Source of the DNA: Caldimonas brevitalea
GTDB taxonomy: Bacteria > Pseudomonadota > Gammaproteobacteria > Burkholderiales > Burkholderiaceae_C
Direction of reading: 5' to 3'
Assembly: GCF_001017435.1 (NCBI RefSeq)
Contig: NZ_CP011371.1
Coordinates: forward strand, 3,286,001 to 3,350,000
Length of the DNA: 64,000 nt
The notes beneath the pieces are model-generated. The model made no database searches, was not told the origin of the DNA, and was given only the letters and a program-made list of their open reading frames with translations. Positions within the stretch are counted from its first letter, which is position 1. Every line of letters starts with the position of its first letter. Of this stretch, positions 39,186 through 58,300 are shown in pieces. A program made the position numbers and the translations under genes.

Positions 39186-41339
<2,154 letters not shown>

Positions 41340-41383
41340 CTATTGCATCCTTCAACGTGTCTGAACATCACAACTCCAACACC

Positions 41384-43558
41384 ATGACGTCGCCTTCGCC
41401 GGCCCTGGGCTCCAAGCCTGCCGCCTTGTTGCAACCAGGCCGCAACTGCTGGCGCATCGAACAGGCTCGCCGGGTCGCCTATCTGATCGACGGCGAACCA
41501 TATTTCAGCGCGGTGCGCGCGGCCATCGCCCGCGCCCGCCGCTCGATCTACATCCTCGGCTGGGACATCGACAGCCGCATGCGGCTGGTGCCTGACGGTG
41601 CCGGCGACGGACTGCCCGAGCCGCTCGGCGAGTTCCTCGATGCGGTGGTGGCTCGGGGCAAGGGCATCCAGGCGCGCGTGCTGAGCTGGGACTTCGCGAT
41701 GCTGTTTGCGCTCGAGCGCGAATGGCTCACCACCTACAAGCTCGACTGGCGCACCCACCGCCACCTGCGCTTTCGACTCGACGATCGACACCCCTTCGGC
41801 GCCTCGCATCACCAAAAAGTCGTGGTGGTGGACGACACCGTTGCCTTCGTCGGCGGCTTCGACCTGACGCGCTGCCGCTGGGACACCTCCGACCACCTGC
41901 CCGACGACCCGCGGCGCATCGACCCCGACGGCAAGCCTTATGGGCCGTTCCACGATGTCGGCGTGATCGTCGAAGGGGACGTCGCGGAGGCGCTCGGCAA
42001 CCTGGCGCGCGAACGCTGGTGCCGTGCCACCGGCGTCAAGGTCAAGCCGGCGCGACCGCCGGGCGACGGCCTCTCGCCCTGGCCGCCTCATGTGCAGCCC
42101 GACATGCTCGACGTGCGGGTCGCCATCGCCCGCACCGAGCCGCGCTTCGACCGCTTCGAAGGGGTCGAGGAGATCCGCTGGCTGCACCAGGACGCGATCG
42201 CCTCGGCCCGGCATCACATCTATCTGGAGAACCAGTATTTCAGTTCGGCCGCGGTCGGCGCCGCACTGGCGCAGCGGCTGGGCGAGCCCACCGGCCCCGA
42301 GGTGGTGTTGGTCACGCCTCAGCGCGAGAGCGGCTGGCTCGAGGAAACCACGATGGGCGTGCTGCGCTCGCGACTGCACCGCCGCCTGCTGGCCGCCGAC
42401 ACGCACGGCCGCTACCGCGCCTATTGCCCGCACCTGCCGGAGCTGGGCCCGAAGTGTTTGAACGTGCACAGCAAGGTGATGACGGTCGACGACGAGTTGC
42501 TGACCGTCGGCTCGGCCAATCTGTCGAACCGTTCGATGGGCTTCGACACCGAATGCAACCTGGTGTTCGAGGCCGCGACGCAAGCCGATGAGGCCGCGGC
42601 CGAGCGGGTGCGGGCCGGGGTGGCACTGATGCGCAACCGGCTGCTCGCGGAGCATCTGGCGGTCAGCCCCGACACGGTCGCTGCCGAGACGCGCGAGCGG
42701 CGCAGCCTCAAGGGCGCGGTCGAGGCCTTGCGCCGTGACGGCGAACGCACCTTGGCACCGTCGCGGCCGGAGGTGGCGCCCGAAATCGACGCGCTGTTGC
42801 CCGACCAGGCGCTGATCGACCCCGAATCACCGCTCGACCCGGACCGCTTCGTCGCCGAATTCGTGCCCAAGGACGCCAAACCGCGCATCTCGCGACGCAC
42901 CCTGACCGTCGCCGCCGTGGTGTTCGGCCTCGGCATGTTGGCGGCCGCCTGGCACTTCACGCCACTGCAGGAGCTGCTGGACCTCGACACCTTGATGCGC
43001 ACCGCCCGGCGCCTGCGGGAACACCGGCTGGCCCCCTTGCTGATGCTGCTGGGCTACGTCGTCGCCGGGCTGATCGCGATGCCGGTGACGGCGCTGATCG
43101 CGGTCACCGGCATCGTGTTCGGGCCGGTGCAGGGCTTGATCTACGCGATGATGGGGTCGCTGCTGAGCGCTGCCACGACCTACGGCATCGGCCGGGCGGT
43201 CGGGCGCGACATGGTGCGTCGCTTCGCCGGGCCGCGCATCAACCGCTTGAGCCGCATCCTCGGCCGCCGCGGGGTGGTGGCGATGACGGTGGTGCGCATG
43301 CTGCCAGTGGCGCCGTTCAGCCTCATCAACGTCGTCGCCGGCGCCTCGCAGATCAATCTGCGTGACTACCTGCTCGGCACCTTCCTCGGCATGGCGCCGG
43401 GCATCTGCATGACCGTGCTGTTCGTCGACCGCTTCACCGAGGCGGTGCGCCGGCCGGGCCTCGGCACCTTCACGCTGCTGGCCGTGGTGGTGGCACTCGT
43501 GGTGGCGGCGTCGATCCTGATCCGGCAGCGCTTCATCGGCCGCGAAACGGCGCGCTGA
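41384..43558 (+). CDS. Phospholipase D-like protein fused to a VTT (DedA/SNARE-associated) membrane domain
   Basis: 724 residues from ATG 41384 (a GTG at 41357 would add nine). Two HKD motifs: His143-x-Lys145 in HHQKVVVVDD and His362 in HSKVMTVDDELLTVGSANLSNRSM, the paired active site of PLD/cardiolipin synthase enzymes. A linker with charged residues (about 430-505) precedes hydrophobic segments (LTVAAVVFGLGMLAAAW, LLMLLGYVVAGLIAMPVTAL) and a VTT domain, GIVFGPVQGLIYAMMGSLLSAATTYGIGRAVGRD. VTT/DedA proteins are linked to lipid scrambling, so the fusion may join phospholipid transfer with lipid turnover. Convergent with nothing; 63 bp before glrK. Substrate unknown. Confidence 0.9.
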   Translation: MTSPSPALGSKPAALLQPGRNCWRIEQARRVAYLIDGEPYFSAVRAAIARARRSIYILGWDIDSRMRLVPDGAGDGLPEPLGEFLDAVVARGKGIQARVLSWDFAMLFALEREWLTTYKLDWRTHRHLRFRLDDRHPFGASHHQKVVVVDDTVAFVGGFDLTRCRWDTSDHLPDDPRRIDPDGKPYGPFHDVGVIVEGDVAEALGNLARERWCRATGVKVKPARPPGDGLSPWPPHVQPDMLDVRVAIARTEPRFDRFEGVEEIRWLHQDAIASARHHIYLENQYFSSAAVGAALAQRLGEPTGPEVVLVTPQRESGWLEETTMGVLRSRLHRRLLAADTHGRYRAYCPHLPELGPKCLNVHSKVMTVDDELLTVGSANLSNRSMGFDTECNLVFEAATQADEAAAERVRAGVALMRNRLLAEHLAVSPDTVAAETRERRSLKGAVEALRRDGERTLAPSRPEVAPEIDALLPDQALIDPESPLDPDRFVAEFVPKDAKPRISRRTLTVAAVVFGLGMLAAAWHFTPLQELLDLDTLMRTARRLREHRLAPLLMLLGYVVAGLIAMPVTALIAVTGIVFGPVQGLIYAMMGSLLSAATTYGIGRAVGRDMVRRFAGPRINRLSRILGRRGVVAMTVVRMLPVAPFSLINVVAGASQINLRDYLLGTFLGMAPGICMTVLFVDRFTEAVRRPGLGTFTLLAVVVALVVAASILIRQRFIGRETAR

Positions 43559-43621: not shown

Positions 43622-45061
43622 ATGGGCTTGGCCACACCGATGTTCACACTGCCGCGCGCCTCCTTCCGCCAGCTGCTGCTGGTCGCCTTCCTGCTGATCG
43701 CCGCCCTGCTGGGCGCGGCGTCGCTGGGCGGCCTGTTCACGCTCGAGCGCCTGATGGGCAAGGCACGCGCGAGCGCCGAGCACTCGGTGCAACTCGCCGC
43801 CGAGGCGCAGACGCTGGCCGACCTGAGCCTGACGATGGAGCGGGCGGCGCGCCAGTTTGTCGTGCTCGAGGACCCGGTGCTGCGGCAACGTTTCGAGGAC
43901 GCCGCGCGCGACGCCGAAGTGGTGCTGCAGCGCTTGGTCGACAACCGCTTGCCGGGCGACCGCGCCGACGAGTGGCGCGGCCGGCTGGACAGCATCCGGC
44001 AGCAGATGCGTGGGCCGCGCGTGACGGCGCGGCAACGCGAGCAAACGATGAGCATCGCGTTTCGCGAGCTGGACGACCTGAACACGGCCATCGCCGACCA
44101 CGTGCGGCAATCGAACCGGCTGCGAAACCAGGAGTTACAGCAGGAACTGGAAGCGAGCCGGCTGCAGCTGGCGCGTCAGGTGCTGGGCGCCATCGCCCTG
44201 GCCGTGGTGCTGGCGTTCGGCTTCGGCCTGTGGCTAGCGCGGCCGCTGAAGCGGCTGGAGCGGGCCATCGTCGGCCTGGGCGAGAACCGGCTCGACCAGC
44301 CGATCGAGATCCGCGGCCCGGCCGACGTGCGCCATGTCGGACGCCGGCTCGACTGGCTGCGGCTGCGGCTGGCCGAACTCGATGCCGACAAGGCGCGCTT
44401 TCTACGCCATGTCTCGCATGAACTCAAGACGCCGCTGGCGGCGCTGCGCGAAGGTGTGGCGCTGCTCGAGGACGGCGTGGCCGGCGAGCTGACCGCCAAC
44501 CAGCGCGAGATCGCGCGCATCCTGCATCACAACACCATGGTGCTGCAGCGACAGATCGAAGACCTGCTGCGCTTCAATGCGGCAGCCTTCGAGGCGCGCC
44601 GCCTGCAGCGCCGCCGCACCGAGCTCGGCGGCCTGGTGCGCCAGCTGGTCGAGGAACAGAAGCTGCAATGGCAGGCCAAGCAGCTGCGCGTCGAGGTCGA
44701 CGGCGGGCCCCTCTATGCCGAGGTCGACCAGGACAAGCTGGGCACCGCGCTCGGCAACCTGTTGTCCAACGCGATACGCTTCAGCCCGCTCGGCGCTAAC
44801 ATTCGTTTTTCCCTGGCCGTCCAGTCGGAGCGGGCCTGCATCGATGTGATCGACGAAGGCCCCGGGGTCTCGCCGTCCGACCGGGCGCGCGTCTTCGAGC
44901 CCTTCTACCGTGGCGAGCGCCAACCCGAAGGCGCCACGCGCGGCACCGGGGTCGGCCTGTCCATCGTGCAGGAGTACGTCGCCGCCCATGGTGGCCGCGT
45001 CGAGTTGCTGCCCAACGCGCCAGGCGCCCACTTCCGTATCGAGTTGCCTCATGTCAGCTAG
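43622..45061 (+). CDS. glrK: GlrK/QseE-type sensor histidine kinase
   Basis: 479 residues. Two membrane helices (about 14-36 and 184-205) bracket a helical periplasmic domain of about 145 residues. A HAMP segment follows (ARPLKRLERAIVGLGENRLDQPIEI), then HisKA with phospho-acceptor His266 in VSHELKTPLAAL, and an HATPase domain with NLLSNAIRFSP, DEGPGV and GTGVGLSIV. Gene order kinase, lipoprotein, sigma54 activator is that of glrK-qseG-glrR in enterobacteria, which supports the name. ATG 43622 or ATG 43640 could be the start; neither has a strong Shine-Dalgarno. Its end overlaps the lipoprotein gene. Confidence 0.88.
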   Translation: MGLATPMFTLPRASFRQLLLVAFLLIAALLGAASLGGLFTLERLMGKARASAEHSVQLAAEAQTLADLSLTMERAARQFVVLEDPVLRQRFEDAARDAEVVLQRLVDNRLPGDRADEWRGRLDSIRQQMRGPRVTARQREQTMSIAFRELDDLNTAIADHVRQSNRLRNQELQQELEASRLQLARQVLGAIALAVVLAFGFGLWLARPLKRLERAIVGLGENRLDQPIEIRGPADVRHVGRRLDWLRLRLAELDADKARFLRHVSHELKTPLAALREGVALLEDGVAGELTANQREIARILHHNTMVLQRQIEDLLRFNAAAFEARRLQRRRTELGGLVRQLVEEQKLQWQAKQLRVEVDGGPLYAEVDQDKLGTALGNLLSNAIRFSPLGANIRFSLAVQSERACIDVIDEGPGVSPSDRARVFEPFYRGERQPEGATRGTGVGLSIVQEYVAAHGGRVELLPNAPGAHFRIELPHVS

Positions 45062-45725
45062 TGTGCTGTCGTGCGCCTGTGCGGCGCAGATGATGTTCGT
45101 CGGCCCCGACACGGCGCGACAACGCCGCGGTGTCGCCGGCCTGCCGGCCTTCCCCGTCGGCCGCCTCTTGGCCGCCTGTGCGCTGGTGCTGGCCGGCTGC
45201 GCGCCCTTGCCGGAGGTGACCGAGGTGCGCCAGGTGAAGGTGCCGATCCGCGTGCCGGTGGTGGTGGTCGAGCCGGCCGACGAGGCCGCACGCCACGTGC
45301 TGCGTTACGCCGAACGCGTGCGCACCTTGCAGCCGCCCGAGCTGCAGGCCGAGATCGCGCGCATCGGCGACCCGGCCGGCGCGCCCGCCGCCTCCATCGA
45401 ACTGGCCCTGGTCCTGGGCCAGATGCGTGGGCCCGGCGATACCGGCAAGGCCATCGCCGCGCTCGAAACCCTGCTGCGCTCGACCGCACCCGAGGCCGCC
45501 GTGTGGCAGCCTTTGGCACGCTTGCTGCTTCCGCGCTTCACCGAAACCAAGCGCCTGGAAGAGCAGATCGAAAAACAGAACCAGCAGCTGCGCGACAGCC
45601 AGCGACGGCTCGACCAGTTGAACGAAAAGCTCGAAGCCGTGAAGGCGATCGAGCGCAGCCTCGGGCCGCGCTCCAGCCCCGCACCGGCACCCGGCATCCC
45701 GGGCGGCAAGTCCGCCCTGCCCTAG
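45051..45725 (+). CDS. QseG-like envelope lipoprotein between glrK and glrR
   Basis: Up to 224 residues. A lipoprotein signal ends in LVLAGC, then about 170 residues of helical protein: EVRQVKVPIRVPVVVVEP, an ARHVLRYAERVRTLQPPELQ segment and a coiled-coil-like KRLEEQIEKQNQQLRDSQRRLDQ near the end. In enterobacteria QseG is an outer-membrane lipoprotein that binds the QseE/GlrK periplasmic domain and stimulates it; the same role is inferred here from position and form. ATG 45051 overlaps the kinase stop; ATG 45093 would give a more ordinary 33-residue signal. No clear Shine-Dalgarno decides between them. Confidence 0.8.
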   Translation: MSASVLSCACAAQMMFVGPDTARQRRGVAGLPAFPVGRLLAACALVLAGCAPLPEVTEVRQVKVPIRVPVVVVEPADEAARHVLRYAERVRTLQPPELQAEIARIGDPAGAPAASIELALVLGQMRGPGDTGKAIAALETLLRSTAPEAAVWQPLARLLLPRFTETKRLEEQIEKQNQQLRDSQRRLDQLNEKLEAVKAIERSLGPRSSPAPAPGIPGGKSALP

Positions 45726-45793: not shown

Positions 45794-45859
45794 ATGAGCG
45801 TCGCACGGCCGCGCGAAGCCGCTCGCACCGCAGTGCGTAGCACGGAGGTAACCAAATGA
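45794..45859 (+). CDS. Possible 21-residue leader ORF overlapping the glrR start
   Basis: Starts at an ATG six bases after a strong Shine-Dalgarno (AAGGAG, 45782-45787), encodes an Arg/Ala-rich peptide (MSVARPREAARTAVRS...) and stops at a TGA that overlaps the glrR ATG (ATGA). glrR also has its own GGAGG at 45844-45848, inside this frame. The layout is that of a translationally coupled leader peptide. Whether it is translated is unknown; it is too short for homology. Confidence 0.4.
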   Translation: MSVARPREAARTAVRSTEVTK

Positions 45860-47214
45860 GCGCGCACGTGCTCGTGGTCGACGATGATCCCGACATGCTG
45901 CGGTTGCTGTCGATGCGCTTGAGCGCCGCCGGCTACCGCGTCACCGCCGTCGAAAGCGCCGAAGCCGCGCTGGCACGGCTCGCATTGGAACGCCCGCAGT
46001 TGGTGGTGAGCGACGTGCAACTGCCCGGCAAGGACGGGCTGGCGCTGTTTGACGACATCCGCGCCCGCCACCCGGCGCTGCCGGTGATCCTGCTCACCGC
46101 CCACGGCACCATCCCCGACGCGGTGGAGGCCACCTCGCGCGGCGTCTTCACCTACCTGACCAAGCCCTTCGACGGCAAGGCGCTGCTCGACAAGATCGCC
46201 CAGGCGTTGGCGCTCGGCGCGCCGCCCGGGGAAGGGGCGCCGGCCGATGAGGCCTGGCGTGTCGCCATCGTGAGCCGTTCCAGCCGGATGGCGGAGCTGC
46301 TCGCCGAAGCCAAGCTGGTGGCCGGTTCCGACGCCAGCGTGCTGATCCGCGGCGAGAGCGGCACCGGCAAGGAGTTGCTGGCCCAGGCCATCCACCAGGC
46401 CAGCGCGCGAGCGCCACGGCCCTTCGTCGCGGTCAATTGCGGCGCCATCCCGGAGGCCTTGCTCGAATCCGAGCTGTTCGGCCACGTCAAGGGTTCGTTC
46501 ACCGGCGCGGTCGCCAACCATCGCGGCTTGTTCCAGGCGGCGGACGGCGGCACCTTGTTTCTGGATGAAATCGGCGACATGCCCTTGCCGCTGCAGGTCA
46601 AGCTGCTGCGGGTCTTGCAAGAACGCTCGGTGCGGCCGGTCGGCGCGACGCAATCGGTGCCGGTGGACGTGCGCATCCTGTCGGCCACCCACCGCGACCT
46701 CGATGAAGCGATGGCCCAGGGCCAGTTTCGCGAAGACCTGTACTACCGGCTCAACGTCGTCTCGCTGACGCTGCCGCCGCTCGCGGAACGTCGCGAAGAC
46801 ATCCCGCTGCTGGCCAACCACTTCCTGTCCAAGCTGGCCGTCAAATACGGCAAGCGGCTCAATGGCTTCGCGCCCGAGGCCTTGAAGGCGCTGGCGATGG
46901 CCTCGTGGCCGGGCAATGTGCGGCAGCTCTTCAACGTGGTCGAGCAGGTGTGCGCGTTGGCCACCACCCCCTTGATCCCGCTGGTGCTGGTGCAGCGGGC
47001 GCTGCGGGTGCCGAGCGTCGAGGTGCTGAGCTATGCCGAGGCGCGCCAGCGTTTCGAGCGCGAATACCTGGTCGGTCTGCTCAAGCTGACCGACGGCAAT
47101 GTGGCCGATGCCGCCCGGCTGGCCCAACGCAACCGCACCGAGTTCTACCGGCTGCTGCAGAAGCACGGCCTGGCCCCCGGATCTTTCCGCGGCGAGGCCC
47201 CTGTCGCCGAATAG
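45856..47214 (+). CDS. glrR: GlrR/QseF-type sigma54-dependent response regulator
   Basis: 452 residues. Receiver domain: acidic DDD at 9-11, phospho-acceptor Asp53 in VVSDVQLPGKDG, Lys103 in LTKPF. AAA+ domain: Walker A GESGTGKE at about 165-172, Walker B FLDEIGDMP, arginine-finger region YYRLNVVSLTLPPLAERREDI; the sigma54-contact loop reads GSFTGA (212-217) in place of GAFTGA. C-terminal Fis-type helix-turn-helix: GNVADAARLAQRNRTEFYRLLQKHGL. It activates sigma54-RNA polymerase once phosphorylated by the upstream kinase. Shine-Dalgarno GGAGG seven bases before ATG. Two palindromes resembling GlrR sites lie at its 3' end and downstream, before opgG. Confidence 0.92.
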   Translation: MSAHVLVVDDDPDMLRLLSMRLSAAGYRVTAVESAEAALARLALERPQLVVSDVQLPGKDGLALFDDIRARHPALPVILLTAHGTIPDAVEATSRGVFTYLTKPFDGKALLDKIAQALALGAPPGEGAPADEAWRVAIVSRSSRMAELLAEAKLVAGSDASVLIRGESGTGKELLAQAIHQASARAPRPFVAVNCGAIPEALLESELFGHVKGSFTGAVANHRGLFQAADGGTLFLDEIGDMPLPLQVKLLRVLQERSVRPVGATQSVPVDVRILSATHRDLDEAMAQGQFREDLYYRLNVVSLTLPPLAERREDIPLLANHFLSKLAVKYGKRLNGFAPEALKALAMASWPGNVRQLFNVVEQVCALATTPLIPLVLVQRALRVPSVEVLSYAEARQRFEREYLVGLLKLTDGNVADAARLAQRNRTEFYRLLQKHGLAPGSFRGEAPVAE

Positions 47215-47219
47215 CGACA
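47202..47219. promoter_or_regulatory. Probable GlrR-binding site 1 (perfect TGTC-N10-GACA)
   Basis: TGTCGC and GCGACA separated by six bases, overlapping the glrR stop codon. It fits exactly the TGTC-N10-GACA motif known for enterobacterial GlrR upstream of glmY. It lies about 180 bp before a consensus sigma54 promoter, a normal distance for an enhancer site. Confidence 0.75.
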
Positions 47220-47225
47220 AGCAAG

Positions 47226-47246
47226 AGTCCTTTCAAAACAAGGACT
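47226..47246. repeat. 7-bp inverted repeat between the two GlrR-like sites
   Basis: AGTCCTT and AAGGACT flank a 7-base loop. It follows the glrR stop by 12 bases, so it may be part of the glrR transcript end or a DNA-bending/regulator site; there is no T-tract. Confidence 0.5.
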
Positions 47247-47267
47247 TAGCCAAAAGGGTCGGTTTTA

Positions 47268-47285
47268 TGTCGCTGTTCAGCGACG
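47268..47285. promoter_or_regulatory. Probable GlrR-binding site 2 (TGTC-N10-GACG)
   Basis: TGTCGC-N6-GCGACG, one base from the TGTC-N10-GACA motif and identical in its inner GC arms to site 1, which starts 66 bp upstream. It lies about 100 bp before the -24 element. Confidence 0.7.
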
Positions 47286-47380
47286 CCGACCCCCCGGCCA
47301 CCCCCTCCAACACCCTCCCCGGTTAGTGAAACCCCTTGTAAGCACGCCTAAGTGCTTGTCATGCAAGGATTTTTCACGCC

Positions 47381-47396
47381 TGGCACAGGGGTTGCG
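47381..47396 (+). promoter_or_regulatory. Sigma54 (-24/-12) promoter of opgG-opgH
   Basis: TGGCAC-N5-TTGC at 47381-47395: both halves match the sigma54 consensus and the GG and GC doublets are 12 bp apart, as required. Transcription would begin near 47407, about 73 bases before the opgG start chosen here. Placed directly downstream of the gene for a sigma54 activator. Confidence 0.85.
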
Positions 47397-47479
47397 ATAG
47401 CCCCCTCCAAGTTGCCCGAGCGACCTCCACGAGAGACCGCTCTGGTGTCTTTGTGACTCTCACCGAAAGGACCTACCCA

Positions 47480-49087
47480 GTGCCGTTGCAGGATCGGATC
47501 ACGTACTTCATCGCGAGTGTTGGCGCCGCCTCGGCCCGCCGCACCGGCGCGACGGTGCGCAGTCCGCTCGGCGCTGCTGCAGCTGCCGCCACGGCGCTGA
47601 CCCTCGCCTACGGTCCCGCAAGCGCTGTGGCGCCGGCAGCGCCCCACTTCGATTTCGAGCAACTCACGCAGCGCGCCCGTGCCCTGGCACAGGCCCCCTT
47701 CCAGCCGTCGGCCTCGACGCTGCCGCAAGAGTTGAAGGCGCTCGACTACGACCAGTACCGCGACATCCGCTTCCGGCCGGAGCGCGCCTTGTGGCGCGGC
47801 GAGAACCTGCCCTTCGAGGTGATGTTCTTCCATCTCGGCAAGCTGCAGACCGAGCCGGTGCTGATCAACGAAATCACGCCGTCGGGCGTTCGCCACGTCA
47901 CCTTCAAGCGCGACGACTTCGACTACGGCAAGAACCGGCTGAAGCCCGAGACCTGGGGTGACGTGGGCTTCGGCGGCTTCCGCGTGCACTACCCGCTCAA
48001 CACGCCGCGCTACAAGGACGAACTGGTCGTCTTCCTTGGCGCCAGCTATTTCCGCGCGCTTGGCGGCGGGCAGCGTTACGGCCTGTCGGCCCGCGGCCTG
48101 GCGATCGACACGGTGGGCGGTCAGCGCGAAGAGTTCCCGCGCTTCAAGGAATTCTGGATCCGCAAGCCGGCCCCCAACGCGACCTCGCTGACGGTCTATG
48201 GCCTGCTCGACTCGCCGCGCGCCGCCGGCGCCTACGAGTTCGAGGTGAAGCCGGGCGGGCAGACCTTGGTCGACGTGCGCTCGCGGCTGTTCCTGCGCTC
48301 GGGTGTCGCCACGCTGGGCGTCGCCCCGCTGACCAGCATGTTCATGTTCGGCGAGAACCAGCCGCACGCGAGCGACTTCCGCCCCGAGGTGCACGACTCC
48401 GACGGCCTGATGGTCGCCACCGGCGAAGGCGAGTGGATCTGGCGTCCGCTGGTGCGCCCGCAACAGCCGCTGGCGACCTCGTTCCAGACGCGCCAACTGC
48501 GGGGCTTCGGCCTGATGCAGCGCGACCGCGCGTTCTCCAGCTACGAAGACACCGAGGCGCGCTACGAGCTGCGCCCGAGCGCCTGGATCACGCCGCAAGG
48601 CGAATGGGGCCCGGGCCGTGTCGAGCTGGTGCAGTTGCCCGCGCCCGACGAGGCCAACGACAACATCGTCGCCTACTGGGTGCCGGCCCAACTGCCGGCC
48701 GCCGGCCAGCCGCTCGAACTCGCCTACCAGATCCGCTGGCAAGGCACCGATCAACAACGCCCCCCGGGCGCCTGGGTCACGCAGACCCGGACCGGCCGCG
48801 GGTTCCATTCCCTACAGAAGGACGAGCATCAGTTCATCGTCGACTTCACCGGACCTTCGCTGGCCCAGCTGCCCGAGGACGCGCCGGTCAAAGCGGTCGT
48901 CACCGCCGGCCCCAATGGCCGCATCGTCGAGCGCAACGCTTACCGCAACGATGCCACCGGCGCCTGGCGCCTGGCGCTGCGGGTCCATCAACTCCAGCGC
49001 GCGCAACCCTTGGAGCTGCGCGCATACCTCCAACACGGCAACGACATCCTGACGGAAACATGGAGCAACATCATTCCTCCCCAATGA
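47480..49087 (+). CDS. opgG: Glucan biosynthesis protein OpgG (MdoG)
   Basis: 535-residue periplasmic protein needed for osmoregulated periplasmic glucan backbone formation or branching. A long signal region (basic, with SARRTG, then AAAAAATALTLAYGPASA) leads to mature FDFEQLTQRARALAQAPF. OpgG features include YDQYRDIRFRPERALW, FEVMFFHLGKL, FGGFRVHYPLN, FLGASYFRALGGGQRYGLSARGLAIDT, LTSMFMFGENQ and DGLMVATGEGEWIWRPL. GTG 47480 is chosen for AAAGGA about eight bases upstream; GTG 47453 is an alternative adding nine residues. Immediately followed by opgH. Likely expressed from the sigma54 promoter at 47381. Confidence 0.95.
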   Translation: MPLQDRITYFIASVGAASARRTGATVRSPLGAAAAAATALTLAYGPASAVAPAAPHFDFEQLTQRARALAQAPFQPSASTLPQELKALDYDQYRDIRFRPERALWRGENLPFEVMFFHLGKLQTEPVLINEITPSGVRHVTFKRDDFDYGKNRLKPETWGDVGFGGFRVHYPLNTPRYKDELVVFLGASYFRALGGGQRYGLSARGLAIDTVGGQREEFPRFKEFWIRKPAPNATSLTVYGLLDSPRAAGAYEFEVKPGGQTLVDVRSRLFLRSGVATLGVAPLTSMFMFGENQPHASDFRPEVHDSDGLMVATGEGEWIWRPLVRPQQPLATSFQTRQLRGFGLMQRDRAFSSYEDTEARYELRPSAWITPQGEWGPGRVELVQLPAPDEANDNIVAYWVPAQLPAAGQPLELAYQIRWQGTDQQRPPGAWVTQTRTGRGFHSLQKDEHQFIVDFTGPSLAQLPEDAPVKAVVTAGPNGRIVERNAYRNDATGAWRLALRVHQLQRAQPLELRAYLQHGNDILTETWSNIIPPQ

Positions 49088-51348
49088 GCCGGCCGCGTTG
49101 GTCGCGCCCTGACAGCTCCTCGCGTGCTCGCGTGGTGTCCCAAACCGCGGGGGCGAGCGCACCGCCGATCCACCGCGGGTCGATGGTGGCACAGCCGTGG
49201 CGAGGCTTCTTCCCGGGTCTGTTGAGCGGCTTGTTCGGCCGTTCGCAGCAGCCCGCCGCGCCGCAAGGACCGCGGGCCGCCTGGGAACAGGCCGCCATCG
49301 TGCGTCGGCGTGTCTTCATCGGCCTGATCCTGCTGTCCACCACGGTGGCCACCGGGCTGATGAGCCAGATGCAACCGGCGACCGGCAACCTGGCGCTGCA
49401 CTACGGCCAGATGGCGCTGTTCGCGCTGCTGTTCGCCTGGGTGTCGGCGGGATTCTTCACCGCGATGATGGGCTTCGTCGTGCAGTTGCGCGGCGACAAG
49501 CACTCGCTGTCGAAGAACGACGTGATGCACAACCCGGTGCATGCCGACGCACGCACGGCGATCATCATGCCGATCTGCAACGAGCACGTCGCGACGGTGT
49601 TCGCCGGCTTGCGGGCCACCTGCGAGTCGCTCGCCACCACCGGGGCGCAGCGTTTGTTCGACATCTATGTGCTGTCGGACAGCAGCGACCCCGACGTGCG
49701 CAGCGCCGAGCTGGCCGCCTGGGCCGAGCTGCGCGCGACGCTGGGCGACGGCGCCCGCATCTACTACCGCTGGCGCCAGCGCCGCACCAAGCGCAAGGCC
49801 GGCAACGTGGCCGACTTCTGCCGCCGCTGGGGCAAGGATTACCGCTACATGGTGGTGCTCGACGCCGACAGCGTGATGACCGGCGACTGTTTGCTGACGC
49901 TGGTGCGCCTGATGGAAGCCAACCCCAAGGCCGGCATCATCCAGACCGCGCCGCAAGCGGTGGGCCATGCGACGCTGCATGCACGTTCGCAGCAGTTCGC
50001 CGGCCGCGTCACCGGTCGCTTGTTCACGCTGGGCATGCAGTACTGGCAGCTGGGCGAGTCGCACTACTGGGGCCACAACGCCATCATCCGCGTCGAGCCC
50101 TTCATGCAACATTGCGGGCTGGCCCCCCTGCCCGGCCGCGGCGCGCTGAGCGGCGAAATCCTCTCGCACGACTTCGTCGAAGCCGCGCTGATGCGCCGTG
50201 CCGGCTACCACGTGTGGCTGGTGGGTGACCTGAACGGCAGCTACGAACAGCAGCCGCCCAACCTGGTCGAAGAGCTGCAGCGCGACCGCCGCTGGTGCCA
50301 GGGCAACCTGCAGAACGCCCGTTTGATCGCAGAGCCCGGCCTGCACCGCGTGCACCGCGCGATGCTGCTGACCGGCGCGATGGCCTACGCGTCGGCGCCG
50401 CTGTGGCTCGCCTTCGTCGTCTTCGGTGCGGCCCTGTGGCTGAGTGGCGGCGCTGCTGCCGCGACCGAGCTGGCCGTGCCGCATGCGATGACCGGCCTCT
50501 GGTTCGGTACCCTGACGATGTTGGTGCTGCCGCGTGTGCTGGGCATCGTCAGCGTGCTGATGAAGGGCGAGCAGCGCCACTTCGGCGGCACCGCTGCCCT
50601 GGTGCAAGGCGCCGTGCTCGAAGCCGCGTTGTCGGTGCTGCAGGCGCCGGTGCGCATGGTGGCCCACACGCTGTTCGTGGTCGGCGCGCTGACCGGCTGG
50701 CGCATCGAGTGGAAGTCGCCCCCGCGGGAAGCTCAGTCCATCGCCTGGTCGGATGCGGCGCGCCGCTTCGCCCCGATCTGCGCTGCTGTCGGCGCGGTGG
50801 CGGCTGGCGTCGCGATGATCAACCCGGCTGCGCTGTTGTGGCTGGCCCCGATCGGGCTGCCGCTGCTGCTGGCGGTGCCGACGGCGGTGTTGACCAGCCA
50901 GGAACGCCTGGGCGAACGTATTCGCAACCAGGGCCTGCTGCTGATCCCCGAGGAAAGCTGGACCCCGGGCGTGCTGCGTCAGGCCTGGGCCTATGCCAAG
51001 CGCCAGGTGCAAGTGCCGCGTTGGTCCGACGTGCTGAGCGACAACTGGCTGTTCAACCTGGCCGTCAGCGCGATGGGCGCCCGCCGCACCGACCAGGGTC
51101 CGCGTGGCCGTGCACGTCGGCAGCTGCTGCACAAGCTGGCCAGTGACGCCGACGCCGAGCGTCTGTCGCCGGCCGAGCGCATGCGTTTCCTCAGCGAGCC
51201 GCAAAGCCTGCAGCAGCTGCGGGCCAAGCACAGCGTGTTGAAGGGCCAGGCCTTCGGGCGGCGGCTGACGCGCAGCGGCATGATGATTCCGGCCCACGCG
51301 TTGGCGTCGCCAGCACCTCGGGCGGCGGCCCGCAGCGTCCACGCTTGA
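49084..51348 (+). CDS. opgH: Glucan biosynthesis glucosyltransferase OpgH (MdoH)
   Basis: About 754 residues. Multi-pass inner-membrane GT2 enzyme that makes the beta-1,2-glucan backbone from UDP-glucose. Helices near 75-95 and 105-130, then the cytoplasmic catalytic domain with AIIMPICNEHVATVFAGL, VLDADSVMTGD (DxD), LSHDFVEAALMRRAG and QRDRRWCQGNLQ (QxxRW), then several more helices (LTGAMAYASAPLWLAFVVFG, TLTMLVLPRVLGIV, LLWLAPIGLPLLLAVPTAVL). ATG 49084 overlaps the opgG stop (ATGA); ATG 49060 would add eight residues. A strong terminator follows. Partner of opgG. Confidence 0.95.
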   Translation: MSRPRWSRPDSSSRARVVSQTAGASAPPIHRGSMVAQPWRGFFPGLLSGLFGRSQQPAAPQGPRAAWEQAAIVRRRVFIGLILLSTTVATGLMSQMQPATGNLALHYGQMALFALLFAWVSAGFFTAMMGFVVQLRGDKHSLSKNDVMHNPVHADARTAIIMPICNEHVATVFAGLRATCESLATTGAQRLFDIYVLSDSSDPDVRSAELAAWAELRATLGDGARIYYRWRQRRTKRKAGNVADFCRRWGKDYRYMVVLDADSVMTGDCLLTLVRLMEANPKAGIIQTAPQAVGHATLHARSQQFAGRVTGRLFTLGMQYWQLGESHYWGHNAIIRVEPFMQHCGLAPLPGRGALSGEILSHDFVEAALMRRAGYHVWLVGDLNGSYEQQPPNLVEELQRDRRWCQGNLQNARLIAEPGLHRVHRAMLLTGAMAYASAPLWLAFVVFGAALWLSGGAAAATELAVPHAMTGLWFGTLTMLVLPRVLGIVSVLMKGEQRHFGGTAALVQGAVLEAALSVLQAPVRMVAHTLFVVGALTGWRIEWKSPPREAQSIAWSDAARRFAPICAAVGAVAAGVAMINPAALLWLAPIGLPLLLAVPTAVLTSQERLGERIRNQGLLLIPEESWTPGVLRQAWAYAKRQVQVPRWSDVLSDNWLFNLAVSAMGARRTDQGPRGRARRQLLHKLASDADAERLSPAERMRFLSEPQSLQQLRAKHSVLKGQAFGRRLTRSGMMIPAHALASPAPRAAARSVHA

Positions 51349-51424: not shown

Positions 51425-51695
51425 GTCGACGCCGCACACGCCCTAAGCGGGACCGCTCATCGCCGCCTCGGAGATGCAGCACGCCTGAAGGCTGTGGACA
51501 TATGCCCTGACAAATATTACAGCCAACAGTTAGGGATGCCGTCGCTTCAGCCCCTTTCATAGGATGTCGCACCCACGGGAGTGGCTATTCAGTCTCTCGC
51601 CTGCCCGCCTCGCCCCTACCCGAACCCGCGCAAGCTTGCCTAAGCGCAGCCGGCTGGCGCCGCAGGGAACCCCCAGATCGCACGAGTACCAAGCA

Positions 51696-53786
51696 ATGTC
51701 GACCAGAACCTTTCAGCTGCTGACCCCACTAGGCGCGGACACCCTGCGCTTCCACCGCATGAACGGACGGGAGGAAATGGCGCGCCTGAGCTCGTTCGAG
51801 ATCGACGCGCTGAGCGAGCGGGAAGACTTGGACCCGGACCAGATTCTGGGCAAGAAGATCGCCGTTCAGGTGGAGCTGCCCTTGGGGGGCTACCGCTATT
51901 TCAGCGGCCACGCGACGCGGTTTGCCCAGGTGGGCGTGCAGGGCCGGCTGAATCTGTATCGCCTGACCATGCGGCCCTGGTTGTGGTTTCTGACCCGCAC
52001 CAGCAACTGCCGCATCTTTCAGCAGATGAAGGTGCCCGACATCCTCAAGCAGGTGTTCGATGCGCATGCCGACGTGGCCGCCACCAGTGTGGAGCTGAGC
52101 GGCACCTACCGCCTGTGGGACTACTGCGTGCAGTACCGTGAGAGCGACTTCGAGTTCGTCAGCCGGCTGATGGAACAGGAGGGCATCTACTACTACTTCC
52201 GCCATGAGGCGGGCCGCCACGTGCTGGTGTTGAGCGACGCTGCCAGCGCGCATGCCCCCTTTCCCGGTTTCGAGCAGATTCCCTACCTGCCCCATGAGCG
52301 CTCGGCGCGCGCCGAGACCGAGCACATCGGCCAGTGGAGCTTCGGCCGCGAGATCCAGACCGGGCGCTACGTGCACGACAACTACGACCCCGAGAAGCCG
52401 CGCGTCGAGCTGCAAGGAAAGGCCGCCCTGGTGCGCGGCCACGCGCAGGCGCAGTACGAGGTCTACGACTACCCCGAGAAGCACCTGACGGCGGCCGAGG
52501 GTGAGCAGTACGCACGTGTTCGCATCGAGGAGCTGCAGTCGCGCTTTGAGACGGCGCAGGGCGATTCGAATGCCCGCGGACTGTCTGTCGGCCACCTGTT
52601 CACCCTCCGCGGGCAGCCGCGGCAAGACCAGAACCGCGAATACCTGGTGTTGTCGGCCACCTATCAACTCGAAGGTGAAAACTACGAGTCGGCCGACGAT
52701 GAAGGGGCGCGCTTCTCGTGCCGCTTCACCGCGCTGCCCAGCAGCGAGCCCTTCCGGGCGGCCCGTTTGACGCGCAAGCCCATCGTGCAGGGGCCGCAGA
52801 CCGCGGTGGTGGTGGGCCCGGCCGGCGAGGAGATCTACACCGACGAGCAAGGCCGGGTGAAGGTGCAGTTTCATTGGGACCGCTACAGCAAGGGCGACGA
52901 GAACAGCTCCTGCTGGATCCGGGTTTCGCACCCCTGGGCCGGCAAGGGCTGGGGCGCGGTCAGCATCCCCCGTATCGGACAGGAAGTGGTGGTCGACTTC
53001 CTGGAGGGCGACCCCGACCGGCCGTTGATCACCGGGCGTGTCTACAACGCCGAACTGATGCCGCCGTTCGCGGCGCCCGGCATGGTCAGCGGGATGAAAT
53101 CGCAGACGCACAAGGGCGCGGGCTTCAACGAAATCTCGATGAACGACACCGCGGGCAAGGAGCTGATGAACATCCATGCCCAGTTCGACCAGGCCACCAC
53201 CGTCCAGAACAACCAGACCAACGCGATCAACAACAACCGCAGCACCACGGTCCAGGTCGACGACACCCTGACCGTGAACGCCAACCGTACGATGAGCGTG
53301 GTGGGCAAGCTGGTCGAGAAGATCGACACCGGGCGTGAGGTGACCGTCGCCTCGGGCTACACCCAGACCATCACCGGCGGGGCCACGCGCACAGTGACGG
53401 GCGGGCTGACCAACACTGTCAACGGCAAGCGCGAGAACACGGTCAACGGCCAGTTTGTCGAAACCATCACCTCGGGCGAGCAGAAGACCGTGCACTCCGG
53501 CAAAGCGCTGACCGTGACCGGCGGCGGTTACACCGAGAAGGTCACCGGGCTGTTCGAAAGCACGGCCATCGGGCCGATGAAACAAGGCGCCACCACCACG
53601 ATGGACCTGCATGCCGACGGCGCGGGCACCTACACCTCGGGCACCTCGTTGAAGTTGGGCGTCGGCCTCGCCTCGGCCATCGAGATCACCGGCGGCAGCA
53701 TCACCATCAGCTCCGGCACCTCGGTCATCAAGGTGGACGCGAGCGGCGTGTCGGTCAACGGCATGCAGATTTCCCTCAACTGCTGA
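51696..53786 (+). CDS. vgrG: Type VI secretion system tip protein VgrG
   Basis: 696 residues. Residues 1 to about 380 form the gp27/gp5-like base (FQLLTPLGADTLRFHRMNGREEMARLSSFEI, YRLWDYCVQYRESDFEFVSRLMEQEGIYYYF). Then comes the OB-fold WIRVSHPWAGKGWGAVSIPRIGQEVVVDFLEGDPDRPL near 415-460, then a long beta-helix of repeats such as VASGYTQTITGGATRTVTGG to the end. No C-terminal effector extension. The frame extends 44 codons upstream without a good start; MSTRTFQLLTP at 51696 matches family starts. It heads an effector island (adaptor, Rhs, immunity). The 270-bp region before it holds no RNA or terminator beyond the opgH one; I saw no sure promoter. Confidence 0.95.
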   Translation: MSTRTFQLLTPLGADTLRFHRMNGREEMARLSSFEIDALSEREDLDPDQILGKKIAVQVELPLGGYRYFSGHATRFAQVGVQGRLNLYRLTMRPWLWFLTRTSNCRIFQQMKVPDILKQVFDAHADVAATSVELSGTYRLWDYCVQYRESDFEFVSRLMEQEGIYYYFRHEAGRHVLVLSDAASAHAPFPGFEQIPYLPHERSARAETEHIGQWSFGREIQTGRYVHDNYDPEKPRVELQGKAALVRGHAQAQYEVYDYPEKHLTAAEGEQYARVRIEELQSRFETAQGDSNARGLSVGHLFTLRGQPRQDQNREYLVLSATYQLEGENYESADDEGARFSCRFTALPSSEPFRAARLTRKPIVQGPQTAVVVGPAGEEIYTDEQGRVKVQFHWDRYSKGDENSSCWIRVSHPWAGKGWGAVSIPRIGQEVVVDFLEGDPDRPLITGRVYNAELMPPFAAPGMVSGMKSQTHKGAGFNEISMNDTAGKELMNIHAQFDQATTVQNNQTNAINNNRSTTVQVDDTLTVNANRTMSVVGKLVEKIDTGREVTVASGYTQTITGGATRTVTGGLTNTVNGKRENTVNGQFVETITSGEQKTVHSGKALTVTGGGYTEKVTGLFESTAIGPMKQGATTTMDLHADGAGTYTSGTSLKLGVGLASAIEITGGSITISSGTSVIKVDASGVSVNGMQISLNC

Positions 53787-55326: not shown

Positions 55327-58300
55327 TGCCGTCGGCCAAACATGGCGACCCGCAGCTGGGCATCGACGTCCACCTGTGTGTCGTGCCGCCGTCCCCTACG
55401 CCGGTGCCCCTGCCCACACCGCACATGTCGGTGGTGTTCGATCCGTTCGACTACGTGCCGATCATCGGTGCGACGGTGTCAGTGTTCGGGATGAAGCGGG
55501 CCACCGCCGGGACCGGCGCGATCGTGCTCCACATTCCGCCGGGTTTCCCGTTCGCGCCGATGCTGCCCGAGAAGGACGACGAGCTGTTCATGGGCAGCGC
55601 CACCGTGACGGCCGACGGCGATCCCTTGTCTTATGTGGCACTGCCCGTGCTGGGTTGCCAGGTGGCCGGCATGCCGAGTCCGCCGCGGCCCAAGAAAAAG
55701 CGGGTACCGCTGCCGAACCTGCTGCCCACCACATTCAACCTCGCCATCCCGACGACGGTGAAGGTGGGCGGGCCGCCGACGATCTCGATGGCGGGCTTGG
55801 TGGCAAGGGGCGCATTCGCCGGCCTGGGCAAGTTGGCGAAGTCGAAGTTCGCCCGGAACCTGGGTGACCGCTTCAAGAAGTTCCGCCAGAAGCTGTTCAA
55901 GAACATGGACTCCGGCTTCCTCAAATGCAAGGTGTTGAGGGCGGAGCCGGTGAACATCCTGTCGGGGGCCGTGGTCGTCGAGCAAGTCGACTTCACGTTC
56001 CAGGGCATGATCCCCATCCCCTGGGTGCGCACCTATGGTTCCAACTCGCGCCGGCGAGGCGCCTGTGGGTACGGTTGGGAAAGCCCGGCCGACGCCCGGC
56101 TGGAGATCGATCTCACAGAGGGCAGCGCGATGTTCCGCCATCCGGCGGAAGGCGTCGCGCTGTTCCCCACAGTGCCTGCGGCTCGGGGCGAGAGCAGTGC
56201 CGTCCTCGAATTGATGGACGGCGGGCTGCTCAGCGAGCACGAAGACGAGTGGCAGGTGCGCACGAAGAGCGGCAACCTCTATCACTTTCCGAAGGCGCTG
56301 GAGCACCCCGGTCAAGACGGCGTTCGGGAGCTGCCACTCGGGCGTGTCAGTGATGCTTGCGGCAACTGGCTGACCTATGAATGGGTCGAGGGTCGACTCG
56401 TTTGCATCCGCGAGTCGAATGGGCGCTGTCTGCTCGTCGAGCACGGCCAGGGTGGCATCCGGTCGCTGTCGATGTTCGTGCCCGAGACCGGTTTCAGCCA
56501 TACCTTCGTCAGCTACGAGCACGATGCAGCGGGCAACCTGGTCACGGTGCGCGACGAACTGGGCAACCCCTACTGCTTTGCCTACGACGGTCACCACATG
56601 GTGCGGCACACCAACCGCGTCGGCCTCTCGTTCCACTATCAGTACGAGCAGGGCTCAGAGGACTGGCAGGTGGTGCACGCCTGGGGCGACGGCGGTCTGT
56701 ACGACTATCGCTTTGCGTACTTCCCGGCGATCCGCGAAGTGCGTGTCACCAACTCCCTCGAGGGGGTGACCACGGTGCAATGCGACGAGCGGGGCTTGCC
56801 CATCCTCGAAATCGACGCGCTCGGCGGACGCACCATCTTCCAGTACGACGAAGCGGGTCGAACGACGGCTGTGGTGAACGCGGCCAACAGCCGTACCGAG
56901 TATGTGTACGACGATCGCGGCAATCTGTTGAAGGTCAAACGCCCCGACGACAGCGTCGTCGCGATCGAGGTCGATGCCCGCAGCAAGCCCACCAGCATCA
57001 CCGATCCGAACGGGGCGGTCTGGGAGCAGCAGTGGGACGAACGAGGCTTGCTGATGGCCCTGAAGAGCCCGCTCGGTGGGGTGACGACGTACGAATACAG
57101 TGACAAGGGCCTGCCGATTGCGGTGACGGATCCGCGCAATGCCTGCACCCGTCTCGCGTATGACACCGACGGCCACCTGGTCGCGGTGATCGATGCGCTC
57201 GGTCATGCGACCCGGTATCGCCGCGATCCGCTGGGGAACGTGGTGGAGCGCAGCGATCCGCTGGGCAGAACCGCGCACTTCCGCTACGACGCGAAGAGTC
57301 GGCTGGTCGGCGTCATGTCTGCCGGCGGCGCCCAAATCCGTTGCAGCTACGACGCGCAGGACAACCTCACGCTCTACGAAGACGAGAACGGGGCGCTTAC
57401 CCGGTTCGAGTACTACGGGCTGGGGCTGCTCAGCAAGCGGCATCAGGCCGACGGCAGCACGATCGATTACCTCTACGACACCGAGGAGCAGCTGGTCGGG
57501 GTGCGCAATGAGCGCGGCGAACTGCACCAGATCGTGCGGGACGCGCTCGGACGCGTGGTTCAGGAGGTGGACTACTGGGGCCAGGCGACCAGCTACGAGT
57601 TCGACGTGGCGGGCCATCTGAAGCAACGATGTGACCCGCTCGGCCGTATCACCCGGTATGCGACAGACAAGTTCGGACGGGTCCGCCGCAAGTCGTTCCA
57701 ACACCCTCTGCAGCCGGGTCGACTGTTCGAGGAGACGTTTGAGTACGACCCGAACGGTCACTTGACGGGCTGCGCCAACGAACACGGGAAGGTGCAGCGC
57801 AGCTTCGACGCCGAAGGGCGTGTGATCGAGGAGCGGCAGGGCGAGTTCGTGGTCAAGAACGACTTCGACGCGCTCGGCCGGCGCATCCGCCGTGAGACCA
57901 GCACAGGCCACACGATCGCCTACGAATACGACGCGCTGGGGCGCCCGGTGTCGATCCGCATCGACGACGAGCCGCCGATCTTGATCGAGCACGACGCGGC
58001 GGGGCAGGTCGTGAAAGAAACGCTGGCGCCGGCGCTGGTGCGGCATTACCGGTACGACGACGAGGGTCAGGTGACGGCGCAAGGGGTGAGAGGGGCCTCG
58101 GACTGGCTGTTCCACACGCAGTACGCGTACGACCTGGCAGGCAACTTGACGCAGCGCCAAGACAGCCAGCACGGGGTGGACCGCTACCGCTATGACCCGC
58201 TGGGGCAGATCGTCGAGCATGTCGACCCTCAGGGACAGCTGCGGCGCTTCTTCCGCGACCCTGCCGGGGACAGCCTGCGCACTCGCGTCGCGCAGCGGCC

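Follow-up and report, generated by a model that had tools for sequence, protein, structure and literature searches.

The locus described here raises the question of what drives opgGH, an operon for OPG synthesis, when it lies behind the gene for a GlrR-like sigma54 activator. We approached this question in a window of 64,000 nucleotides, the whole stretch of DNA analysed, which belongs to one contig of 6,476,147 bp. GlrK, a small lipoprotein and GlrR, together with sigma54 and probably assisted by IHF, very probably drive opgGH through an enhancer-promoter element at 47202-47395, and opgGH would have been captured once by an element older than this arrangement. The original prediction, that GlrR and sigma54 drive opgGH, is supported as far as sequence can tell, by conservation and by comparison with E. 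coli. What goes beyond it is the helical phase with its IHF-like signature, the presence of the element at opgG genes away from glrR, its absence where GlrR is lacking, and the exchange of the genes that lie behind it.

The locus and its control element

The features on which the argument rests are as follows, in window coordinates.

43622..45061, + strand: glrK-like sensor histidine kinase gene (HisKA, HATPase_c; aligned to E. coli GlrK)
45051..45725, + strand: small lipoprotein gene in the qseG position (assigned by position and the lipobox LAGC; overlaps the end of glrK)
45856..47214, + strand: gene for a glrR-like sigma54 activator (receiver, AAA+, HTH; assigned by Pfam, NCBIfam and a C-terminal segment)
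47202..47219, no strand: UAS1, a perfect TGTC-N10-GACA (glrR stop codon TAG in its spacer; conserved)
47268..47285, no strand: UAS2, one mismatch (last base G), 66 bp from UAS1 start to start
47349..47361, + strand: putative IHF-like box (2 mismatches, a weak copy; 32 bp before the -24 element)
47381..47395, + strand: sigma54 -24/-12 promoter TGGCACAGGGGTTGC, perfect TGGCAC-N5-TTGC (match in consensus and spacing)
47465..47471, + strand: likely ribosome-binding site GAAAGGA (from the sequence)
47480..49087, + strand: opgG (GTG start, in-frame alternative GTG 47453; MdoG PF04349)
49084..51348, + strand: opgH (in-frame alternative ATG 49060; MdoH NF003960; overlaps the end of opgG)

Both members of the OPG synthesis operon were identified by family models. 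OpgG matches PF04349 (MdoG) with 651.8 bits (frame 47453-49087 searched), and OpgH matches NF003960 (MdoH) with 1066.7 bits, above the cut-off of 829 (frame 49060-51348 searched). The start of opgG is probably GTG 47480, behind GAAAGGA. The product of glrR scores 100 bits against PF00072 and 245.6 bits against PF00158, its HTH region is recognised by alignment to E. coli GlrR, and the two proteins have the C-terminal segment RNRTEFY[RK]LL in common. Its best NCBI model is GlrR (NF011695) with 619 bits, followed by ntrC with 423.8. As 619 bits lies below the curated equivalog cut-off of 763 bits, we call the protein GlrR-like rather than a certified equivalog; best match, operon and site together mark it as a likely GlrR ortholog. 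With that qualification, the identities originally proposed for GlrR and opgG are borne out by Pfam and NCBIfam.

The kinase aligns with E. coli GlrK over nearly its full length (33% identity, E 1e-62), and a glrK match is present in 78 of the 84 GlrR-ortholog loci that have more than 1 kb of upstream DNA. The 224-aa lipoprotein encoded between glrK and glrR finds matches in 64 of the same 84 loci and gives an E value of 0.097 in BLASTP against E. coli QseG. The main text of PMC12691602 describes qseEGF as a three-gene operon across Pseudomonadota, Betaproteobacteria included, in which the sequences of QseG and QseE are highly variable. The operon in the window is of the same three-gene type, and a lipoprotein without a recognisable BLASTP match to QseG agrees with the variability reported there. 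Two sigma54 (RpoN) genes are present in the genome (G000:C1:242553 and 4560954).

Some neighbouring features may be mentioned in passing. Upstream of the glr operon lie a TPP riboswitch before a thiC-like gene (41175-41276, - strand, judged by eye) and a gene for phospholipase D-like domains fused to a VTT membrane domain (41357-43558, + strand). A VgrG-like type VI secretion gene, likewise judged by eye, directly follows opgH (51564-53786, + strand).

The core of the element had been read from the sequence as a perfect palindrome at 47202, a second copy 66 bp downstream at 47268 with one mismatch and the same inner arms, and a consensus sigma54 promoter at 47381 before opgG; letters and coordinates were checked and agree in every case. 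UAS1 and UAS2 have the longer arms TGTCGC-N6-GCGAC in common. The promoter begins 113 bp after the start of UAS2, and the enhancer-promoter spacing, which had been called normal, compares with 107 bp at E. coli glmY. The IHF-like box was located with YAANNNNTTGATW, which we take to be the IHF consensus. The start of opgG lies 85 nt past the -12 element. If the transcript begins near 47407, as expected, its leader would measure about 73 nt.

Between the two sites, at about 47227-47247, a stem AGTCCTT-N7-AAGGACT can be drawn that by eye seems unconserved across 18 aligned loci. The only other perfect TGTC-N10-GACA within the window is at 58220-58237, with no sigma54-like match (at most 2 mismatches, fitting orientation) listed within 180 bp.

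Frequency of the motifs in the genome

The loose palindrome with at most one mismatch occurs at 29 places in the window, where 20.3 are expected. With the arms extended and at most one mismatch there are 63 places in the 6.5-Mb genome against 111 for the reversed control, and only two of the genomic places are perfect, 47202 being one of them. Perfect TGGCAC-N5-TTGC occurs at 15 places in the genome against 8 for the reversed control. Single motifs are thus unremarkable in this GC-rich genome, and the case rests on arrangement and conservation.

When site, spacing and TGGC-N7-TTGC are required together, the window's genome holds 5 places and the reversed control none. The four places other than opgG lie across long reading frames, have no second site and show TGGCGC for TGGCAC, and we set them aside as coding background. 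By this one site pattern, opgGH is the only convincing target in the genome. The same pattern gave 74 matches against 23 for the reversed control in all 60 genomes searched, so that a background exists for it; 14 stretches with such matches were fetched and inspected, and the rest were judged by their letters at most.

Conservation behind glrR

We collected 187 GlrR-ortholog loci, which became 186 distinct loci when the duplicate L174 was dropped. Some of the order-level loci were chosen by hand among the matches listed, each family code being represented by one or a few, so the sample is non-random at this level. As controls we used 64 of the 66 non-ortholog NtrC-type loci among the at least 80 related loci listed, 14 of which were themselves GlrR orthologs. 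An element was scored when two sites with at most one mismatch each were followed by a sigma54 promoter with at most one mismatch.

Such two-site elements were found behind glrR in 128 of the 186 loci, and at least one site with a sigma54 promoter in 146. At the other NtrC-type regulators, among the matches listed, neither two-site nor one-site elements were seen (0/64 each). Thus the sites are conserved in relatives, which was the check that the original prediction had called for. Reversed patterns gave no two-site and no single-site element, 20 shuffles gave averages of 0.0 and 0.1, and the interior of glrR held 0 and 1, respectively. A control with swapped arms and the real sigma54 pattern gave no pairs and singles in 14 of the 186 loci, which makes the single-site counts softer. 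A chance origin of the element was rejected on the control counts at GlrR and other loci together with the genome pattern counts. The inner arm letters, which the scan did not demand, are kept as well: in the 128 modules G5, C6, G13 and C14 are found 118, 110, 108 and 115 times in UAS1 and 125, 91, 115 and 121 times in UAS2. In 87 of the 128 modules UAS1 lies over the glrR stop codon or within glrR.

The geometry is also constrained. UAS1 and UAS2 are 63-68 bp apart in 113 of the 128 modules, and as most values fall in this range, a phase test on this interval is uninformative. The distances from UAS2 to the promoter form clusters at about 71, 82, 93, 103, 112 and 123 bp, that is, in steps of a DNA turn. 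Their periodicity at 10.5 bp has a resultant R of 0.651 for 99 values, each spacing being counted once per genus, which corrects for kinship in part; a jittered null has a mean of 0.143 and a highest value of 0.375 in 5000 draws, and without the main spacing class the resultant is still 0.632. Of the 128 modules, 109 have an IHF-like box in the interval from UAS2 to the promoter that departs from the consensus used at one position or none, compared with about 9 in shuffles. In 100 of these 109 the box begins 28-33 bp ahead of the -24 element and has the same orientation, as does the weak copy in the window.

Comparison with known systems

The E. coli locus (NC_000913.3) served as a positive control. 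Three perfect TGTC-N10-GACA sites were found before glmY, at -230, -197 and -134, with a sigma54 promoter of one mismatch at -27, and the comparison with enterobacterial GlrR sites drawn in the original prediction therefore holds. The last two E. coli sites are 63 bp apart against 66 in the window, and the promoter lies 107 bp downstream of the last site against 113. The spacing of 107 bp falls between two of the clusters given above, which is a small point against a strictly identical geometry. IHF-assisted binding of QseF to the three UAS of E. coli glmY is described in the main text of PMC6075780, according to which the target is an sRNA gene upstream of glrK that has three sites and an overlapping weak sigma70 promoter. 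The window differs in that a structural operon downstream of glrR is preceded by two sites. A further sigma70 promoter may also exist for opgGH.

Other outputs bear comparison too. The sigma54 promoter of E. coli rpoE is under QseF and is likewise an envelope-stress output of the same activator, although its product is a sigma factor and not an enzyme of glucan synthesis (main text of PMC6075780). For OPG genes, two-component control is described in Dickeya (PMC4726272), where it concerns opgC and is exerted by RcsCDB and EnvZ/OmpR rather than GlrR or sigma54. PMC12691602 deals with the contact between QseG and QseE, and glucan and opgG are absent from its main text. We found no statement of GlrR/QseF or sigma54 control of opgGH in the literature searched, which included the main texts of PMC3162934, PMC3844500, PMC4591121, PMC7073468, PMC12316311, PMC12691602, PMC8895600 and PMC6075780; subscription papers were mostly outside its scope, as was the 2011 paper on glmY/glmZ control (PMC3045617).

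Association of the element with opgGH

Either opgG or opgH lies behind the element or glrR in 89 of the 186 loci, for example in Variovorax, Pseudorhodoferax and Pseudacidovorax, and 80 of the 89 have the strict element. In the remaining nine a site or the promoter is degenerate, or DNA has been inserted. At three loci (L012, L121, L190) additional DNA separates glrR from the sites, which then adjoin opgH.

In two genomes (G140 and G290) opgGH has parted from glrR and is found 50 kb away or on another contig. No element is found behind their glrR genes (L110, L111), and opgG is directly preceded by two perfect sites 68 bp apart and a perfect sigma54 promoter (L303, L304). In G114, where DNA lies between glrR and opgG, the element is again found before opgG (L305), with one promoter mismatch. 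The unlinked opgGH of two genomes with GlrR, G466 and G043, have no element. In a genome of another family, G046, an unlinked opgG has a perfect sigma54 promoter in front of it, with one perfect site 161 bp upstream of that promoter; this spacing is outside the usual range, and the case hints that a link between GlrR and opg can arise in trans.

Conversely, in 20 genomes of the family that have opgGH and no GlrR match, a site with a sigma54 promoter upstream of opgGH was found in none (0/20), and one of these stretches (L289) shows a sigma54-like site by itself, with one mismatch; a twenty-first held no DNA upstream of opgGH and was left out. Across 299 family genomes, with kinship ignored, 78 have both glrR and opgH, 13 glrR only, 28 opgH only and 180 neither. 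In one genome counted as opgH only (G299) a contig end truncates glrR and the element is present, which brings that class to 27. Four of the 110 OpgH rows (G176, G252, G255, G313; 36-37% identity) were left out of this count, and all four have glrR.

Exchange of the genes behind the element

The element is not confined to opgGH. The genes behind glrR in the 186 loci, and the numbers with the strict element, are as follows.

opg: 89 loci, 80 with the strict element
BON-type: 26 loci (Herbaspirillum among them), 20 with the strict element
Group including glycine-zipper proteins: 14 loci, 7 with the strict element
EF-hand: 3 loci, 3 with the strict element
Other or none: 54 loci, 18 with the strict element

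The labels are similarity clusters, apart from L121 (opg) and L191 (other), which were labelled by hand. Pfam searches on 11 full cargo proteins found BON (PF04972) in four, EF-hand in one and globin in one, and PF05433 was found in two of three tested proteins of the glycine-zipper group. One genome (G056) has no element at its glrR locus and has a site with a sigma54 promoter before a gene that by eye is BON-like, on another contig.

On a FastTree tree of the 186 GlrR proteins the opg label needs 4 changes, against a mean of 62.4 when labels are shuffled. The tree would fit one gain beside BON-type relatives plus three exceptions, namely G140/G290 and G114, whose displaced opgGH carry the element, and G092, which has no opgH match; FastTree local support at the key fork for a single gain is 82. 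The element is older than its present cargo, as in many families of the Burkholderiales it follows glrR and precedes other envelope genes. On either side of the exchange UAS1 is found at the end of glrR or slightly within it, and from this we infer that the control element stayed in place and the gene behind it was exchanged. A single capture of opgGH is the most likely history, and the closest relatives of the clade in which it would have taken place have a BON-domain gene at this position.

We lean towards a broader scenario, somewhat more probable to us than its opposite, in which UAS1, UAS2, the IHF-like box and the sigma54 promoter form a fixed GlrKR 'socket' behind glrR, with cargo swapped among unrelated envelope genes (BON/OsmY-like, glycine-zipper, EF-hand, OpgGH). 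In the clade that includes the Comamonadaceae examples, opgGH would have displaced the BON gene in that single capture, so that a switch for the envelope in general became a regulator devoted largely to periplasmic glucan, and the element would later have been able to leave with its cargo.

Proposed mechanism and alternatives

We propose that GlrK, modulated by the small lipoprotein, would phosphorylate GlrR on an envelope signal, and that GlrR oligomers would then bind both palindromes. IHF would probably introduce a bend between UAS2 and the promoter, and at TGGCAC-N5-TTGC the AAA+ domain of GlrR would open sigma54-RNA polymerase. The predicted transcript from near 47407 would carry opgG-opgH. 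If this is true, GlrKR (QseEF), which the texts consulted treat in enterobacteria via glmY/glmZ and rpoE, directly serves structural genes in many environmental Burkholderiales, and opgGH of these bacteria gains a regulator. The GlrKR signal would become testable in organisms with one clear target and no sRNA branch, and the succession of cargo genes that follow a single conserved enhancer would be a clear natural example of regulatory rewiring in which the gene is exchanged and not the promoter.

Since the outputs of GlrR in enterobacteria include the sRNA genes glmY and glmZ (main texts of PMC6075780 and PMC3844500), the sigma54 promoter could instead make a GlmY/GlmZ-like small RNA from the gap, with opgG a bystander. 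We consider this extremely improbable: opgG begins 85 nt after the -12 element and leaves little room, no sRNA family reaches its gathering threshold in the window (RF00128 included), GlmZ (RF00083) is unmatched in 40 relatives while the E. coli control is positive, and GlmY (RF00128) matched only E. coli and Arsenophonus among 11 loci searched. The element moreover accompanies opgG where glrR sits elsewhere, and a GlmY-like sRNA in the gap between glrR and opgG was rejected for want of a family match and of room. That same displacement bears on the suggestion that another regulator binds the palindromes, or that they are a remnant of the glrR 3'-end, and that GlrR does not control opgGH. The many further sigma54-activator and receiver proteins in the genome, and the frequent overlap of UAS1 with the end of glrR, would favour such a reading. 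Even so, the element is away from glrR or does not adjoin it at the opgGH of G140, G290 and G114, it stands before the BON-like gene of G056 on another contig, and we rejected a mere glrR-end leftover on account of its presence before opgG distant from glrR. Specificity for GlrR loci against the other NtrC-type loci, together with the similar sites at E. coli glmY, makes another owner of the sites hard to square with the data, and the element is absent before opgGH in the 20 genomes without GlrR; we consider this explanation very unlikely.

A different matter is whether GlrR controls opgGH as one member of a broad regulon, the other sites of which are single or degenerate. We regard this as possible though rather doubtful. 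G046 has several elements, one of them at its unlinked opgG, G002 of the same genus as the window has a single-site candidate (L268), and single-site promoters exist in other families, against which stands the one convincing pattern match in the window's genome. The view originally put forward, that the module is dedicated to glucan synthesis, can accordingly be kept in part: it is supported within the window's genome by the one site pattern used, whereas across relatives dedication is lineage-specific and other envelope genes are served elsewhere, with several elements in G046 and a second candidate in G002. Control of opgGH by GlrR and sigma54 remains our preferred reading.

Further candidate targets

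The candidate in G002 (L268, about 534-640) consists of one perfect palindrome and, 87 bp further on, a perfect sigma54 consensus, followed by an ABC-ATPase-like gene; it is possibly a second GlrR target or the site of another activator. The two further elements of G046 (L259, L260) are both two-site elements, and the GlrR regulon may be wider in this genome; the gene behind L259 presumably resembles a WecG/TagA-type glycosyltransferase. In G048 a single site with a sigma54 promoter is found beyond the other end of the glr operon and points away from it (L255, about 232-330), before what we take to be a bactofilin-like gene. Divergent GlrR-like proteins of 58-60% identity (L207-L211) occur as second copies in G153, G254, G214 and G071 and as the only listed copy in G212. 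Three of these loci (L207, L209, L211) have paired sites of their own, with a globin as cargo at L209 (by Pfam) and L211 (by similarity) and, we assume, an alpha/beta-hydrolase-like gene at L207. Finally, on the strand opposite to glrR, G050 has two elements of a single site and a sigma54 promoter (L256, L257), at about 2.5 and 9 kb upstream of that gene, which precede reading frames of about 470 residues with exported-looking products.
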